Origin: Bacteroidota bacterium | GTDB lineage: Bacteria > Bacteroidota > Ignavibacteria > Ignavibacteriales > SURF-24 | Reading direction: 5' to 3' | NCBI GenBank assembly: GCA_030706145.1 | Contig: JAUZPB010000013.1 | Location: 1-64,000 of the forward strand | Length of the DNA: 64,000 nt | Shown here: one piece after another, positions 28,054 to 35,500 of the stretch | Numbering within the stretch: position 1 is the stretch's first letter | Layout: every line of letters begins with the position of its first letter | Program-made: the position numbers and the translations under genes | Notes under the pieces: model-generated | Told to the model about the DNA's origin: nothing | The model's database searches: none | What the model saw: only the letters and a program-made list of their open reading frames with translations

Positions 28054-28092
28054 TTAACATTAACTTAACAATAAAATAATACTGAGTTAATA
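28054..28092 (+). promoter_or_regulatory. Putative Pho box before the lipid-remodelling pair
   Basis: TTAACA at 28054-28059 and again at 28065-28070, followed at the same 11-bp step by ATAATA (28076) and TTAATA (28087). Direct TT(A/T)ACA-like repeats every 11 bp are the recognition pattern of PhoB/PhoP-type regulators, as in the Bacillus PhoP box. On the minus strand the two strong units read TGTTAAG-N4-TGTTAAC, matching the pst repeats at 30502 in opposite orientation. Located about 125 bp before the metallophosphoesterase start. Confidence 0.62.
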
Positions 28093-28217
28093 ATGATCTG
28101 CTATATTTCTTTGTAAGCTTTACTTACTTTTATTTCGTTAGCTTTCTTTAAGAAATAATGAAAATATATGATAATTTAAGTCTTTGGTAAACAAAGTTAA
28201 ATAAAGAAAGTATATAA

Positions 28218-29141
28218 ATGAAAATTGCTCATATTTCAGATCTCCATATTTGTTCGAAACTTAGACATTCCAATATTAAAAGAACTCGTTTTCTACTTAA
28301 CTATATTGTGGAAAATAATTATGACCATATAGTAATTTCAGGCGATATTACAGATAATGCCGAAACAAAAGATTTTAAGATATTTAGAGAGATTCTAGAG
28401 CAGTTTGACTTGCTCGATTCACATAAGGTGTCTCTTGTAATTGGGAACCATGATATTTTTGGAGGTATTCAAACTGTTGATGATATATTAGATTTTCCTT
28501 CTAGGTGTCAGAAAGTCTCTTACAAAAGTAAAATTAATCAATTTGGTGAATACTTCCTTGAAACATTCTCTCACGCCTTCCATCCTAATGACTCAGATTT
28601 ATTTCCTTATGTCAAAAACCTGGGGGACGCTGCCCTTATAGGTATTAACTCAATTGCAGAATATTCACACCTTAAAAATACTTTTGCTGCTAAAGGAAAA
28701 GTTTCTAAAGAGGAAATCGCTGGGATTCAAAGAATTTTTAGCTCAAAAGAATATTTAGGTAAAATTAAAATTGTGCTTATTCACCACCACTTCTTTAAAT
28801 ATCCAGATGAATTCTCCTCTTCAGAACCGAACCTTTGGAGAAAAATCGAAGGCAATATGATGAAATTGACTAAAAAAAAGAGAATTCTTAAACTCTTTGC
28901 AAATAATAATGTAAAGCTTATACTTCATGGCCATATACATGGGAATTGTGAATATACCAGAAACAATATAAAAATAATTAATGCGGGGTTAACTTTTAAC
29001 GATATAAATGCAAATCTTGTTCAATTTAACTCTATCACTATTGAAAAAGGTGAGATCTTTAATGAGACTGTTACTTTAGATCGAAGTTGGAAAAGCATCG
29101 GAAAACTAAGTATATTAGGCAATAGGGCTGCAAATTTCTGA
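28218..29141 (+). CDS. Calcineurin-like metallophosphoesterase (PlcP-like candidate)
   Basis: A 307-residue cytoplasmic phosphoesterase with all metal-binding motifs: HISDLH (D8, H10), SGDITDN, GNHD (about residue 77), LIHHH and LHGHIHG (H237, H239). It has no signal peptide. Its size, its direct neighbour (an MGDG-synthase-like glycosyltransferase), the Pho-box repeats upstream and the pst operon downstream fit a PlcP-type enzyme, which in proteobacteria removes phosphate head groups from phospholipids during phosphate starvation to give diacylglycerol. Family membership is clear; this specific substrate is inference. Other members act on cyclic nucleotides or nucleic acids. Confidence 0.85.
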   Translation: MKIAHISDLHICSKLRHSNIKRTRFLLNYIVENNYDHIVISGDITDNAETKDFKIFREILEQFDLLDSHKVSLVIGNHDIFGGIQTVDDILDFPSRCQKVSYKSKINQFGEYFLETFSHAFHPNDSDLFPYVKNLGDAALIGINSIAEYSHLKNTFAAKGKVSKEEIAGIQRIFSSKEYLGKIKIVLIHHHFFKYPDEFSSSEPNLWRKIEGNMMKLTKKKRILKLFANNNVKLILHGHIHGNCEYTRNNIKIINAGLTFNDINANLVQFNSITIEKGEIFNETVTLDRSWKSIGKLSILGNRAANF

Positions 29142-29258
29142 GAAAACCTGCTATTTTTTATATATCTGAAAAATACCTCCACCATATAAACTGGTCTTAT
29201 CAGAAAATGTATCTTTTTATGGATAAAACCTGTTCAAATAATTTTTAAATATTATATA

Positions 29259-30398
29259 ATGAGAAAAGAAAAATACTTCCTTATGTTTTTGAGAACGGGT
29301 GGTGGCCATTTAGCTCCAGCTAGATCAGTTGAAGAATATCTTAAAAAGAACTACTCTGAAAAAATTGAACCAGTATTAATCGATGGATTGCATTCAAGTC
29401 CTTCTTATCTAAAGTTTATTGTTGAGGATGGTTATAGAATACTGCAGAACAGGGCAAAATGGTATTATGAATTACTTTATGCTATAAATAAGATCATTCC
29501 TTTTGCAAAATTAAGTGATTTACTTGTCTCGAATCGTATTAAGCCTGTAATTAAAAAGAGGATTATAGAGGAAAAGCCGGATAAAATTGTAATATTTCAT
29601 TTCTTTTTAATCAGACCTGTCTTTGAAATTCTAAAGGAACTAGGCGTAAATATTCCGGTCATAACTGTTGTTACAGATCCCTTTATTGCTCATCCAATTT
29701 GGTTTCTAAATCGCAAACAAACTTTTATTGTCTTTAGCGAACGCTTGAAGAACTATGCTCTTAGAAGAAAAGTATCTTCTGAGAACCTTCATGTTTTTCC
29801 TTTTATACTGAATGAAAAATTTTCAAACCCAATTCCTAAAGATCAGATTCCACAGCTGAAGAAGTCCTTGGGATTTCAGGAAGATAAAAAAATTGTTTTA
29901 ATTGTAGGTGGTGGAGACGGAATTCCAAAGGGGGAGAGAATAGTTCGAAATCTGATAGAAGGTGTGGACTCTGCACAAATTGCAGTAGTATGCGGAAAAA
30001 ATAAAAAATTCTTTCAGTCTGTCCAAAAAATGAAAGAAAATTATGAACTCTCTACTCTTAAGGTCTTTCAATATGTGGATTTTATTTATGAGCTTTTAAA
30101 TATTTCTGATATTGTAATTACAAAATGTGGCGCCTCTACGTTTATGGAAATCCTGATGATAAAGAAAATTCCTGTCGTGAACAACTATATATGGGAGCAG
30201 GAAAAGGGAAACGTTGAGTTTCTTGTTATGAATAACCTTGGAATTTATGAAAGGAATATAAAAAAACTTCCTTTACTTATTAGACGCCTTTTATGCGAAC
30301 CAGACGTGTATAATTTATTCCTCAATAATATTGAAAAAGCACATCTTAGAAATGGAACCCCTGATGTTTCAGAATTTATTGTAAATTTTTCACTCTAG
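29259..30398 (+). CDS. MGDG-synthase-like (GT28) glycosyltransferase
   Basis: A 379-residue glycosyltransferase. The N-terminal half begins LRTGGGHLAPARSV (G14-H17), the signature of the monogalactosyldiacylglycerol synthase/UgtP group, with a hydrophobic membrane-contact region (YELLYAINKIIP) and ITVVTDPF. The C-terminal half is of the Glyco_tran_28 type, with VGGGDGIPKGERIVRNLI and the donor-binding segment ITKCGASTFMEILMIKKIPVV. Such enzymes move galactose or glucose from the UDP-sugar to diacylglycerol at the inner face of the membrane. It lies 117 bp after the metallophosphoesterase on the same strand and probably shares its promoter. The sugar and acceptor are not proven by sequence; MurG-like function is unlikely because the GGGH loop differs. 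Confidence 0.83.
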   Translation: MRKEKYFLMFLRTGGGHLAPARSVEEYLKKNYSEKIEPVLIDGLHSSPSYLKFIVEDGYRILQNRAKWYYELLYAINKIIPFAKLSDLLVSNRIKPVIKKRIIEEKPDKIVIFHFFLIRPVFEILKELGVNIPVITVVTDPFIAHPIWFLNRKQTFIVFSERLKNYALRRKVSSENLHVFPFILNEKFSNPIPKDQIPQLKKSLGFQEDKKIVLIVGGGDGIPKGERIVRNLIEGVDSAQIAVVCGKNKKFFQSVQKMKENYELSTLKVFQYVDFIYELLNISDIVITKCGASTFMEILMIKKIPVVNNYIWEQEKGNVEFLVMNNLGIYERNIKKLPLLIRRLLCEPDVYNLFLNNIEKAHLRNGTPDVSEFIVNFSL

Positions 30399-30501: not shown

Positions 30502-30530
30502 TGTTAAGAAATTGTTAAGTTTATGTTAAG
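30502..30530 (+). promoter_or_regulatory. Putative Pho box of the pst operon
   Basis: TGTTAAG occurs three times at an exact 11-bp step (30502, 30513, 30524), with a degenerate fourth unit TTTTAAC at 30534. This is the direct-repeat geometry of PhoB/PhoP boxes and lies about 90-120 bp before pstS, the expected target. A PhoB/PhoR pair is not in the window. Confidence 0.75.
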
Positions 30531-30620: not shown

Positions 30621-31418
30621 ATGTTCAAGAAGTATTTCTTCCTCTCTGCAATGCTTTTAACTCTCCTTACAATGTTCTTTGGGTGTGGGAAGGCTAAAGT
30701 TCCAATTACAATGGCAGGCTCTACAGCTTTTCAACCCTTTGCTGAGAAACTTGCTGACCAATATATGCAGTCTCATAATAACGTTACTATTACGGTCCAG
30801 GGTGGAGGTTCTGCTGTTGGCATTCAGTCGGCGAATTCTGGCGCTGCACAGATTGGTATGGCCGACCTTGTAACTCTGCCACAGGAAGCCAAATCACTCG
30901 ATGCTATTGTTGTGGCTAAAGACGGTATTGCAGTTGTCGTTAATCCTAAAAATACAGTTACTAATCTTACTACTGATCAGGTCCGTGATATTTTTAATGG
31001 GAAAATTACTAATTGGAAAGAACTTGGAGGCTTAGATGCTCCAATTACTGTGGTCTCTCGTGAGGCAGGCTCCGGCACAAGATCTTCATTTGAACAGATT
31101 ATAAAAGATATTAATCTTAAAAGAGATGCTTTAATTCAGGATTCAAACGGTACAATAAGAGAAACAGTGGCAAATGATGCAAATGCTGTGGGATATATTT
31201 CTCACGGACTCATAAATGAAAAAGTTAAAGCTCTTAAGATCGATGGACAAGAAAGCACTGCTGAATCTATAACAAGTGGTAAATATAAGCTGGTAAGACC
31301 AATTTTCTTGCTCGTTAAAGGTCAACCCCAAGGTGAGATCAAAAACTTTATCGATTATATCCTTTCCTCTGAAGGGCAGCAGACAATTAAATCAAATGGA
31401 CTGCTCCCAGCTAAATAA
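30621..31418 (+). CDS. pstS: Phosphate ABC transporter substrate-binding lipoprotein
   Basis: A 265-residue lipoprotein: leader of about 21 residues with a lipobox ending FFGC (C22), so it is probably anchored to the periplasmic face of the inner membrane or to the outer membrane. The mature protein has PstS/SphX features: ITMAGSTAFQPFAEKL, the IGMADL and ITNWKELGG segments, and the phosphate-loop motif SREAGSGTRSSFEQ. It delivers phosphate to PstC/PstA. First gene of pstS-C-A-B-B, preceded by 11-bp-periodic Pho-box repeats. Confidence 0.95.
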   Translation: MFKKYFFLSAMLLTLLTMFFGCGKAKVPITMAGSTAFQPFAEKLADQYMQSHNNVTITVQGGGSAVGIQSANSGAAQIGMADLVTLPQEAKSLDAIVVAKDGIAVVVNPKNTVTNLTTDQVRDIFNGKITNWKELGGLDAPITVVSREAGSGTRSSFEQIIKDINLKRDALIQDSNGTIRETVANDANAVGYISHGLINEKVKALKIDGQESTAESITSGKYKLVRPIFLLVKGQPQGEIKNFIDYILSSEGQQTIKSNGLLPAK

Positions 31419-31470: not shown

Positions 31471-32328
31471 ATGAAGTCGCTTAGTGAAAAAGGAGTTCGC
31501 AGAATATTAATGGCAGTTGCATTCTCAGCTATTTCGGCGCTACTGCTAATAACTTTATTTATCATAAATGAGGGGGTGCCTTTCATTTTCAAATATGGAG
31601 TAGGGAATTTTTTATTCTCATCTGACTGGCACCCGCAGCAGATGAAGTTTGGCATATTTCCTATGATTACAGCTTCACTATGGGTAACCTTTGGAGCTAT
31701 GCTCCTCGGGGCTCCTTTAGGTGTGGCCGTCGCTCTTTTTTTGAGTGAATATGTTCCAAGACCTATAATGAGAATTATTAAACCAACTATTGAGCTCTTA
31801 GCTGCTATCCCTTCGGTCGTTTATGGATTTATTGGTGTAATAGTCCTTGCTCCTTTAATTAGAAATTATCTGGGTGGCCCGGGACTGTCGCTTTTATCTG
31901 GCTCAATTATTCTTGGAATTATGATACTTCCTACTGTTATTAGTATCTCAATTGATTCAATCCTCGCCGTACCTCAGTCTTACAGGGAAGGCTCTCTGGC
32001 TTTAGGTGCTACTACTTGGCAGACAATCAATATGGTTACAGTAAAGGCCTCAAAATCAGGAATTATTGCTAGTATTATTCTAGGACTTGGACGTGCAATA
32101 GGAGAGACTATGGCCGTCATTATGGTTGCCGGAAATTCCGTAAACATGCCTCATTCGGCTTTGGATTCCGTAAGAACCTTAACTGCAAATATTGCTCTTG
32201 AAATGAGCTATGCCACTGGCCTTCATCGACAGGCTCTTTTTGCAACTGGCGTCGTCTTGTTTGTAGGTATTATTATTCTGAATTCAATTGCTAGCATTGC
32301 ATTAAGAAAAAGGATGGTGAAAGGATGA
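31471..32328 (+). CDS. pstC: Phosphate ABC transporter permease PstC
   Basis: A 285-residue inner-membrane permease with about six helices. It has the MetI-like permease fold with the coupling loop EGSLALGATTWQTINMV (about residues 172-188) that contacts the ATPase. An ATG preceded by AAGGTATAA follows pstS by 52 bp. It overlaps pstA by 4 bp, which indicates translational coupling and a PstC-PstA heterodimer. Confidence 0.94.
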   Translation: MKSLSEKGVRRILMAVAFSAISALLLITLFIINEGVPFIFKYGVGNFLFSSDWHPQQMKFGIFPMITASLWVTFGAMLLGAPLGVAVALFLSEYVPRPIMRIIKPTIELLAAIPSVVYGFIGVIVLAPLIRNYLGGPGLSLLSGSIILGIMILPTVISISIDSILAVPQSYREGSLALGATTWQTINMVTVKASKSGIIASIILGLGRAIGETMAVIMVAGNSVNMPHSALDSVRTLTANIALEMSYATGLHRQALFATGVVLFVGIIILNSIASIALRKRMVKG

Positions 32329-33167
32329 TGAGACTTAATCCTAGGTATGTTCAACGTGGAGCTGTTTTTGTTTTAGGTGGCGCTACAGTTTTAACACTGC
32401 TTATATTAATTTTTATTATATTTTTTATTCTAGAAAAAGGCCTGCCTGTTCTGACTCTAAACTTTCTTACTGGCAATCCTGAAGATCTGGGCCGTAAAGG
32501 TGGAATATTTCCTGCAATAATTGGTTCAATTATTCTTCCTCTTCTTGCAATTCTGATTGCAACACCTTTGGGAATATTTACTTCTGTTTATCTTTCCGAA
32601 TATACAAGGGAATCAAAGTTAACTAGACTTATAAGATTCGGTACTGATTGTCTTGCTGGTATTCCTTCGATCATCTTTGGTCTCTTTGGCTATATCTTCT
32701 TTGTTATTACTCTTGAGATGGGCTGGTCAATCCTTTCCGGTGCCCTTACGCTTGCTGTAATGATCCTCCCTACAATCATTAGAACCTCTGAAGAAGCCAT
32801 TAGAGCAGTACCAAAGACATACCGCGAAGTTAGCTTTTCATTGGGCGCAACAGGCTGGCAAACTGTAAAAAAAGTCATTTTGCCAAATGCACTTCCAGGA
32901 ATTGTTACAGGTATTATGCTTAGCATTGGTCGCTCAATCGGTGAAACAGCAGCCGTTATATTTACTGCTGGCTCTTCTTTGAGACTGCCTACTTCAATTT
33001 TTGATTCTACAAGGACTATGGCTGTACACTTTTATATTCTGGCAAGAGAGGGAATTTCTCAGGAAAATGCTTACGGAACTGCAGCGACACTTATTATTGC
33101 TGTCCTTTTAGTTAACCTGACTGCTTACTGGCTCATGAACAGATTCATTGCTAAAAGAAGAAGCTGA
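32325..33167 (+). CDS. pstA: Phosphate ABC transporter permease PstA
   Basis: A 280-residue permease, about six transmembrane helices, with the coupling segment EVSFSLGATGWQTVKKVILP (about residues 168-187) and IGETAAVIFTAG, typical of PstA. It pairs with PstC to form the phosphate channel. The stop codon lies inside a 15-bp tandem duplication (33156-33185). Confidence 0.94.
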   Translation: MMRLNPRYVQRGAVFVLGGATVLTLLILIFIIFFILEKGLPVLTLNFLTGNPEDLGRKGGIFPAIIGSIILPLLAILIATPLGIFTSVYLSEYTRESKLTRLIRFGTDCLAGIPSIIFGLFGYIFFVITLEMGWSILSGALTLAVMILPTIIRTSEEAIRAVPKTYREVSFSLGATGWQTVKKVILPNALPGIVTGIMLSIGRSIGETAAVIFTAGSSLRLPTSIFDSTRTMAVHFYILAREGISQENAYGTAATLIIAVLLVNLTAYWLMNRFIAKRRS

Positions 33168-33251: not shown

Positions 33252-34007
33252 ATGACTACAAAATTTCAAATACATAACTTTAGTTTTTTCTTCAAAGATC
33301 AACAGATCCTGAAGAATTTAGAATTCCAGATCCCTTCAAATGAAATATTTGGCATTATTGGACCTGCTGGATCAGGAAAAACAACTTTCCTCAGGGCTCT
33401 GAACCGGATGAATGACCTGGAAACTGAGATCAGCCATAAAGGCAATATACTTATGGATCAAAATGATATTTATACAGATGATTTCGATGTGGTTTCTCAT
33501 AGAAAGAAAGTCGGAATGGTCTTTGCAATGCCTGTTCCTCTTCCAATGAGTATATATGAAAATGTTGTATATGGACCAAGACTCTCAGGTATAAAAGATA
33601 GAAGAGCTCTGGATGGATTGGTAGAAAATAGCCTTAAGGCTGCATTTCTCTGGGATGAGGTCAAAGACCGCCTTAAAACTTCCGGTATGCGGCTCTCTGG
33701 TGGACAACAGCAGAGACTTTGTCTGGCAAGGGTCCTGGCAATGCAACCTGAAGTAATTCTACTTGATGAACCCTGCTCCGGACTTGATCCAATATCAACT
33801 GCAAAAATTGAAGATGCTCTTACAGAACTAAAAAAACAATATACAATTGTACTTGTAACTAACAATACAAAACAGGCTGCAAGAGTAGCCGATAAGACTG
33901 CTTTTTTTCTGATGGGTGAGTTAGTTGAACTTGGCCTTACAAAACAAATTTTTACTTCACCTGTAAAAAAACAAACAAACGATTACATAACCGGTAGATT
34001 TGGATAA
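33252..34007 (+). CDS. PstB-like ATPase with degenerate Q- and H-loops
   Basis: A 251-residue ABC ATPase of the PstB family. Walker A GPAGSGKTT (about residues 37-45), signature LSGGQ (148-152), Walker B VILLDEP and D-loop SGLDP are intact. Two catalytic positions are changed: the Q-loop Gln is alanine (VFAMP, A92) and the switch histidine is asparagine (VTNN, N204). Both losses are exact substitutions in an otherwise uninterrupted protein, so it is not a decaying pseudogene by appearance. Its partner at 34020 keeps Q and H but has lost the signature. The pair is therefore predicted to form an obligate heterodimer under the PstC-PstA channel. It lies 84 bp after pstA and 12 bp before the second ATPase. 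Confidence 0.88.
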   Translation: MTTKFQIHNFSFFFKDQQILKNLEFQIPSNEIFGIIGPAGSGKTTFLRALNRMNDLETEISHKGNILMDQNDIYTDDFDVVSHRKKVGMVFAMPVPLPMSIYENVVYGPRLSGIKDRRALDGLVENSLKAAFLWDEVKDRLKTSGMRLSGGQQQRLCLARVLAMQPEVILLDEPCSGLDPISTAKIEDALTELKKQYTIVLVTNNTKQAARVADKTAFFLMGELVELGLTKQIFTSPVKKQTNDYITGRFG

Positions 34008-34019
34008 GAATTTATTAAA

Positions 34020-34784
34020 ATGACTACAGAAAAAAATAAAATTGAAATTTCTGGGCTCGACCTATATTACGGAAAGTTCCACGCTCTGCAATCAGTAAGT
34101 ATGCCAGTTCAAAAAAATTTGATTACGGCTCTTATTGGACCTTCAGGCTGCGGAAAATCTACTCTTCTTAGATGCCTTAATCGTATGAACGACCTGATAA
34201 GTGGAGTTAAAGTAACAGGAAAAGTGCTCCTTGATCAGAGCGACATTTATAGCCCCACATTTGAAGTAACAGAACTTAGAAAACGTGTTGGTATGGTCTT
34301 TCAAAGACCAAATCCTTTCCCTCTTTCTATATATGATAATGTGGTTTATGGCCTTAAGGTTGCTGGTATGAATAACCGAAAGAAAATGGAAGAGATCGCT
34401 GAAAAGAGCCTTATGGGCGCTTGGTTGTGGGATAATGTAAAAGATAAACTTCATCACTCGGCTCTTGAGCTTCCACTAGACCAGCAGCAGAGACTATGTG
34501 TAGCCCGTTTGCTTGCAATTGAGCCCGAAGTGATACTTATGGATGAACCTTGTTCAGCCTTAGATCCTATTGCTACAATGAAAATTGAAGAACTAATGTT
34601 GGAATTAAAGAAAAATTATACAATCGTCATTGTTACACACAATATGCAACAGGCTGCCCGAGTTTCTGACTTTACAGGATATATGCTCTTGGGCAAAATG
34701 ATCGAATTTAATGTGACAAAAGATATCTTTACCCGGCCAAAGGAAAAACTGACAGAAGAGTATATCTCGGGAAAATACGGATGA
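34020..34784 (+). CDS. pstB: PstB-like ATPase with degenerate signature motif
   Basis: A 254-residue ABC ATPase very similar to PstB. Walker [11 protein letters not shown]-loop VFQRPNPFP (Q95), Walker B VILMDEP and switch VTHN (H207) are all intact. The ABC signature LSGGQ is replaced by LPLDQ (151-155), so this subunit cannot complete an ATP site in a homodimer. Combined with the upstream ATPase, its Walker motifs would face that partner's intact LSGGQ and form one consensus site. Terminal gene of the pst operon, ending inside a perfect hairpin shared with the convergent phoU. Confidence 0.9.
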
Positions 34785-34816: not shown

Positions 34817-35500
34817 TTAATTTACATCCTCACTTTTCTTTCTGAGCTTCTTTTGATGTGAAATAAATTCAGCATCAACATAAAATACCAGATTTTCTGC
34901 TATGTTAGTAGCATGGTCTGCCATGCGTTCAATTTGCCTGGTTAAGAGGATCAAATGCGAGCAAGGCTCGATCATCGCTTGGTCAGTTTGCATCTTTGAA
35001 ACCAGAAATTTGAAATTTTCCTTATTCATCTTATCTACTGTCTCATCTGAATCAAGTACTTTTTGGGCAAGTTCGGTATTTGAGTTAATAAAAGAATCTA
35101 TGGCATCTTTTACCATCTGCTGCGACTGTTTCCCCATTTCAAGTAATTTTGATTCAACGATCAGATTATGATTTTCACTGGTCTTTTTTACACGCTGCGC
35201 TATATTGACGGCAATATCACCACATCTTTCTAGCTCATTATTTATAAGTAATGCAGACATAACAAATCTGAGGTCGGTCGCAACTGGTTGAAATAATGCA
35301 AGAATGTTTTCACATTGGGTTTTTATTAGATTTTCATATGCATCAATCTCATGGTCCCTTGCTTTTATTCCCCTGAGAAGTTCAATGTCCCCATTTTCTA
35401 ATGCCATAGTGGCCCTGCCTACCTGTTCATCAACAATTGACGCCATTTTTATAAGGTTTACTTTGAGGTTCTCAATTTCCTTTACGAAATTATCTTGCAT
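34817..35500 (-). CDS. phoU: Phosphate signalling regulator PhoU
   Basis: A 227-residue all-helical protein made of two three-helix PhoU repeats. The metal-binding motifs are ExxxD-like in each half: NNELERCGDIAVNIAQ (about 85-100) and TRQIERMADHATNIAEN (about 190-206). It represses the Pho response when phosphate is ample by linking Pst to the PhoR kinase. It is encoded opposite to the pst genes and convergent with them, so unlike the usual pst-phoU arrangement it is not co-transcribed. No PhoR or PhoB gene is present here. Confidence 0.95.
   Translation of the reverse strand: MQDNFVKEIENLKVNLIKMASIVDEQVGRATMALENGDIELLRGIKARDHEIDAYENLIKTQCENILALFQPVATDLRFVMSALLINNELERCGDIAVNIAQRVKKTSENHNLIVESKLLEMGKQSQQMVKDAIDSFINSNTELAQKVLDSDETVDKMNKENFKFLVSKMQTDQAMIEPCSHLILLTRQIERMADHATNIAENLVFYVDAEFISHQKKLRKKSEDVN

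Follow-up and report, generated by a model that had tools for sequence, protein, structure and literature searches.

A metallophosphoesterase gene (its product herein referred to as MPE) and a gene for a GT28 glycosyltransferase (herein GT28) were found directly before the pst genes in an Ignavibacteria genome. As judged from sequences and predicted structures, the two proteins probably form a Pho-controlled module of membrane-lipid remodelling, in which phospholipids would be replaced by glycolipids. The window, i.e., the whole stretch of DNA analyzed, comprises 64,000 nucleotides, and its source genome has 5.34 Mb in 345 contigs. Both ORFs are intact and located on the plus strand (307 and 379 aa). 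The GT28 gene is followed by pstS, pstC, pstA, and two pstB copies, with phoU in convergent orientation. The features of the locus are:

28054-28070, plus strand: Pho box TTAACA-N5-TTAACA, TTAACAttaacTTAACA, upstream of the MPE gene; one of five exact copies in the genome
28089-28094, plus strand: possible -10 element AATAAT, 18 bp past the second TTAACA (consensus scan only)
28218-29141, plus strand: MPE, proposed phospholipid head-group phosphodiesterase (PF00149, metal-site residues, model)
29259-30398, plus strand: GT28, MGDG-synthase-type glycosyltransferase (PF06925 and PF04101 over cut-off; PDB profile, model)
30502-30529, minus strand: pstS Pho box, three TTAACA 11 bp apart (TGTTAA on the plus strand), two overlapping exact pattern matches
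30621-31418, plus strand: pstS (TIGR02136, 232 bits against a cut-off of 207)
31471-32328, plus strand: pstC (position, membrane-protein sequence, call in the earlier note, 87% identity to the sister pst cluster)
32325-33167, plus strand: pstA (position, sequence, 83% identity to the sister pst cluster)
33252-34007, plus strand: pstB1 (motif scan: LSGGQ intact, H-loop His replaced by Asn)
34020-34784, plus strand: pstB2 (motif scan: LPLDQ in place of LSGGQ, H-loop His retained)
34817-35500, minus strand: phoU (PF01895, 153.8 bits)

An earlier note, made from the sequence alone, described a same-strand phosphoesterase and a GT28 enzyme with the GGGH signature directly before pst, and the ORFs, the Pfam matches, and the TGGGH motif all agree with it. 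Its description of the phosphoesterase as cytoplasmic is a fair reading, since no signal peptide is apparent. As to the transporter itself, the tandem PstB ATPases have complementary defects (PstB1 in the H-loop, PstB2 in LSGGQ), and an identical split was found in two other loci (L047, L048). The pair resembles a heterodimeric ATPase in which one of the sites is degenerate.

The proposed pathway would proceed as follows. At low phosphate, a PhoB-type regulator would bind the TTAACA boxes and turn on pst. The box at 28054 would drive MPE, as well as GT28 by read-through if both genes form a single unit. MPE, a predicted cytoplasmic dinuclear metallophosphoesterase, would cleave the head group of a phospholipid, its presumed substrate, with PlcP-like products, namely diacylglycerol and a phosphoester. 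GT28 would then add a hexose, the presumed sugar, from a UDP-sugar to diacylglycerol, the presumed acceptor, forming a phosphorus-free glycolipid. In relatives, MPE is coupled to other makers of phosphorus-free lipids: OlsF, a GT4 enzyme, or GT28 together with a DUF6938 protein.

Pho boxes of the locus

PhoB-type direct repeats with an 11-bp period were found before the MPE gene. The repeats mentioned in the earlier note are present as TTAACA-N5-TTAACA at 28054-28070, and a second set, absent from that note, precedes pstS (30502-30529). Three of the five exact genome copies lie within these 2.5 kb (binomial P about 1e-9), so the repeat is more than a chance occurrence. The other two exact sites (C288 and C291) were rejected as Pho boxes: one is intragenic, the other precedes a DinB-like gene, and both are taken as chance because no phosphate genes are found nearby. 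A genome scan allowing one mismatch gave no enrichment (57 matches vs. 97 for the reversed control); thus, the exact form alone is informative.

The boxes are conserved in sister genomes. All four exact copies in G004 (4.8 Mb) belong to the pst cluster, being located before phoU, pstS, and two operons (pstB-MPE and porin-pst). The pst cluster of G003 contains three of the six exact copies of that genome. Among 67 distinct regions upstream of MPE genes, 55% match the box at 11 or 12 of 12 positions (Fisher 5e-20, a value inflated by relatedness). The corresponding figures are 6% for genes other than MPE, none of 12 for rnfC, and 1.1% for dinucleotide shuffles. In 38 cases the upstream region is common to MPE and a divergent gene, and the box may therefore serve either gene or both. 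One recurrent divergent cluster over such a common Pho-box region contains genes for NeuB, a KdsC-like protein, a CTP-transferase, an aminotransferase III, an SDR protein, a transketolase, and g340 (L050, L051, L054, L058, L123, L124, and many of L125-L167). At its far end, OlsF and a FA-hydroxylase-like gene were found in several genomes. The product of this cluster may be a nonulosonate lipid or a surface polymer under Pho control.

A Pho-box repeat located 18 bp from the -10 element occupies the usual place of the -35 element. The second TTAACA of the box at 28054 has this position relative to AATAAT. No Pho box was found for GT28 itself and no terminator between MPE and GT28; we infer that GT28 is probably transcribed from the MPE promoter. 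Taken on sequence, the exact boxes common to MPE and pst, together with their conservation in sister genomes, argue for the Pho control proposed earlier, and by the same criteria TTAACA-N5-TTAACA is a real Pho box in this host. In a literature search for a TTAACA Pho box in Bacteroidetes, the sequence TTAACA was absent from all papers listed. If the reading is right, the box can be used to recognize Pho control in this group.

The phosphoesterase and its genomic neighborhoods

MPE matches the Pfam family Metallophos (PF00149) with 65.6 bits (cut-off 21.5). The metal-site residues D8, H10, D43, N77, H78, H189, H237, and H239, representing the DxH, GD, GNHD, HH, and GHxH motifs of the dinuclear site in the calcineurin-like superfamily, are invariant in 19 aligned proteins. 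For the predicted model (pLDDT 84.5), the nearest folds are Rv0805 and GpdQ, i.e., cyclic-nucleotide and glycerophosphodiester phosphodiesterases. The anti-phage phosphoesterase DS9 was rejected as an identity for MPE (56 bits vs. a cut-off of 420).

A lipid A enzyme, that is, an LpxH/LpxG-like UDP-diacylglucosamine hydrolase present here by chance, is a highly improbable identity for MPE. In its favor, such an enzyme would belong to the same superfamily, and MPE matches the LpxH and LpxG models weakly (LpxH, 17.9 bits vs. a cut-off of 134). However, another gene of this genome, at C44, is itself LpxH-like (LpxH is its best model, with 111.9 bits, under the same cut-off), which makes a lipid A role of MPE unlikely, and the absence of MPE from 28 of the 59 genomes surveyed would be unexpected for an essential step.

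For comparison with PlcP, the Sinorhizobium meliloti Ak57 protein L211 was used as a reference. It was found by synteny, being encoded beside LuxR and AHL-synthase genes, in agreement with the position of plcP close to sinR/sinI. The P. aeruginosa homologue shares 47% identity with it, and a glycosyltransferase follows directly, the two matching PA3219-PA3218; the reported identity is 46% (PMC8528852). Glycosyltransferases follow the PlcP copies of Roseomonas and Sphingomonas as well. The best rhizobial match of MPE (H1/L120) was rejected as PlcP, its NUDIX, GST, and leuA neighbors being a misfit.

The earlier note had proposed a PlcP equivalent, and by descent this does not hold. L211 is LpxH-like, and its alignment with MPE covers only 83 aa at 29% identity (pairwise E=4e-5), a similarity at the level of the superfamily. 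A tblastn search with MPE (E<=1e-3) against the record containing L211 matched another phosphoesterase and not PlcP. In the phosphoesterase tree, MPE is placed apart from the PlcP clade; branches are long, and the tree is resolved only in splitting the MPE and PlcP-like rows. The context of MPE is of the PlcP type, combining a Pho box with genes for phosphorus-free lipids. The best reading of these comparisons is that MPE is analogous to PlcP in its role and stands outside the PlcP clade.

The neighborhoods of MPE were surveyed in 79 named loci and its occurrence in 59 genomes. The named relatives are mostly metagenome genomes of Ignavibacteria/Ignavibacteriales, and the host is assigned to that group on this basis. 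Among the 79 loci, the gene directly next to MPE is OlsF in 10 cases, a GT4 (always the same ortholog) in 12, and GT28 in 4 (L134, L154, L157, and L199), with GT28 nearby in one further locus. The OlsF assignment is certain (curated model). This GT4 shares 27% identity with the transferase following the P. aeruginosa plcP homologue, and its best-scoring models are lipid glycosyltransferases, all below cut-offs. In sister genomes, the pst cluster includes MPE, with pstB on one side and a phoB-like gene on the other. Other arrangements include MPE with GT28-DUF6938 and porin and/or pst genes (L134, L157, L177), behind pstCAB-phoU (L191), and beside phoB and GT4 (L186, L196, L197). MPE is often accompanied by an M28-type peptidase-like gene and by a PstS-like paralogue whose identity to the PstS of the window, in the cases measured, is about 30-33% (L057, L059, L061, L140, L166, L168, and others). 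Conservation of the pair beside pst was thus confirmed in a looser form only: an association exists in five other named loci, but the adjacent MPE and GT28 genes of relatives are convergent, and the co-directional pair was found only in this genome among those examined.

MPE co-occurs with OlsF, GT28, or GT4 (both present in 26 genomes, MPE alone in 5, a partner alone in 7, neither in 21; P=5e-6, uncorrected for kinship). The five genomes having MPE and none of these partners all belong to one family. The most informative genomes are the four that have OlsF but lack MPE. In two of them (G005, G053), genes for a PlcP-like enzyme and a GT21-type protein lie within a few kb of OlsF, as if the PlcP-like enzyme replaced MPE there; for G021 and G050, the surroundings of OlsF showed no phosphoesterase. 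Two loci from genomes without MPE (L222, 2612-8569; L223, 5408-14747) contain OlsF, a GH1 glycosidase, an HpnI-like GT21, and a PlcP-like phosphoesterase.

An alternative function for MPE is that of a Pho-controlled phosphodiesterase scavenging phosphate from soluble substrates such as glycerophosphodiesters and cyclic or other nucleotides, with GT28 making its glycolipid independently from diacylglycerol of another source. The nearest folds, Rv0805 and GpdQ, agree with this function. The match to the model for the cAMP phosphodiesterase CpdA, which argues against it, reaches no more than 27.9 bits (cut-off 225). In some loci MPE lies behind ppk-ppx (L170, L173, L192) or phoU with no lipid gene, and ppx accompanies it in L201. 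Counting against the lipid-cleaving role, no lipid or pst/pho partner from the reference genes was found in the fetched stretch at 47 of the 79 loci, 4 of which have ppk-ppx or ppx. On the other hand, direct adjacency to OlsF, GT4, and GT28 recurs, and at two OlsF loci a PlcP-like enzyme stands in for MPE. We consider the soluble-substrate function rather unlikely.

The lipid-cleaving role of MPE is preferred here. In its wider form, offered tentatively as a plausible proposal, the phospholipase C of phosphate-starved Ignavibacteria would be a separate metallophosphoesterase family with an Rv0805/GpdQ-like fold and a helical insert, recruited independently of PlcP and serving three outputs: ornithine lipid (OlsF), GT4 glycolipid, and GT28 glycolipid, with or without DUF6938.

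The glycosyltransferase and DUF6938

GT28 has both domains of its family, matching MGDG_synth (PF06925) with 54.4 bits (cut-off 25) and Glyco_tran_28_C (PF04101) with 34.1 bits (cut-off 22). All 14 GT28 proteins in an alignment share the TGGGH motif. A PDB profile search retrieved only Arabidopsis MGD1 (E=2.4e-41) and the processive diacylglycerol glucosyltransferase (1e-35). The predicted model (pLDDT 88.6) is nearest to MGD1 in Foldseek (E=2.9e-19; next structure, 3e-11), and the motifs GGGH, GGGDG, KCGAST.ME, and EQEKGN align with those of MGD1. Similarity to Agt was not detected: a BLASTP comparison with the transferase following the P. aeruginosa plcP homologue gave no meaningful match. 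A search of 59 genomes for Agt homologues gave a single positive genome, which is not that of the window. The expectation of a GT28/MGD1-type enzyme in place of Agt was therefore borne out.

In relatives, GT28 is located beside DUF6938 in 12 of 14 loci, mostly away from pst. The DUF6938 proteins (L071-L081; L122) are about 440 aa long and contain an MGYGH motif. A comparison of DUF6938 with GT28 by hhalign gave a probability of 10.5% (E=0.003), and the DUF6938 C-terminal part matches the UgtP model weakly (25 bits), which suggests that DUF6938 may be a glycosyltransferase. In the genome of the window, DUF6938 remains elsewhere (C56:7019-8338, L122) and has no Pho box; thus, GT28 alone seems to have moved into the pst locus.

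This usual partnership, mostly off pst, and the three genomes having GT28 without MPE would fit an acceptor other than diacylglycerol, such as another lipid or a polyprenyl carrier, the adjacency to MPE being incidental. We judge this improbable, as GT28 in both sequence and fold is closest to MGD1 and then to the processive diacylglycerol glucosyltransferase. Furthermore, MPE and GT28 became neighbors on more than one occasion, with the genes in opposite orientation (L134, L154, L157, L199), and in G040 an exact Pho box precedes the DUF6938-GT28 operon, although a divergent gene shares it. Diacylglycerol remains the preferred acceptor.

Implications and comparison with known systems

If the lipid-remodelling reading is right, a widespread, mostly uncultured bacterial group has to be added to those that save phosphorus by remodelling their membranes. 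Surveys based on PlcP would miss these bacteria, because their phosphoesterase is not PlcP. Phosphorus stress in sediments and groundwater could then be traced with MPE as a candidate marker gene, and one enzyme superfamily would seem to have supplied the lipid-degrading step on several occasions.

It is established that PlcP is under phosphate control and acts together with Agt, btaBA, or further transferases (PMC4796936, PMC8528852), and plcP has been reported in a flavobacterium. The PlcP-Agt systems of S. meliloti (PlcP) and P. aeruginosa (PA3219-PA3218) resemble the window in the Pho box, the combination of a metallophosphoesterase with a glycolipid-type glycosyltransferase, and the expected outcome (PMC8528852, PMC4796936). 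They differ in both enzymes: PlcP is LpxH-like and MPE is not, and Agt belongs to GT4 whereas the window transferase belongs to GT28.

The phosphate-limited anaerobe Desulfovibrio alaskensis replaces phospholipids by glycolipids and ornithine lipids using OlsF and Agt (PMC5193443). OlsF likewise adjoins MPE in many relatives, but the genome of the window has no OlsF, and D. alaskensis uses Agt. A text search of PMC5193443 for a phosphoesterase or phospholipase found no mention of one.

GT28 shares its domains, fold, and the motifs GGGH, GGG[DE]G, K.G...E, and QE.GN with plant MGD1 and with UgtP, the diglucosyl-diacylglycerol synthase of B. subtilis. It differs from UgtP in scoring 132.5 bits against the equivalog cut-off of 500 (NF010135).

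In type Ia methanotrophs, plcP is located near a B. subtilis-type DAG glycosyltransferase (PMC9239053), which, from the wording of that paper, is taken to be UgtP, a GT28 enzyme. The methanotroph pair is similar in joining a phosphoesterase with a non-Agt transferase of this type; it involves a true PlcP in Proteobacteria, whereas the phosphoesterase of the window belongs to another family and is encoded in the pst cluster of an Ignavibacteria genome. The earlier remark that the pair was not known to be described in its group stands insofar as a search of one literature collection brought up no paper on such a module in Ignavibacteria, and it is qualified by this methanotroph pairing. New here is a distinct phosphoesterase family in a likely PlcP role with interchangeable partners, together with the TTAACA Pho box of these bacteria and, for Ignavibacteria, the form of the module with GT28.
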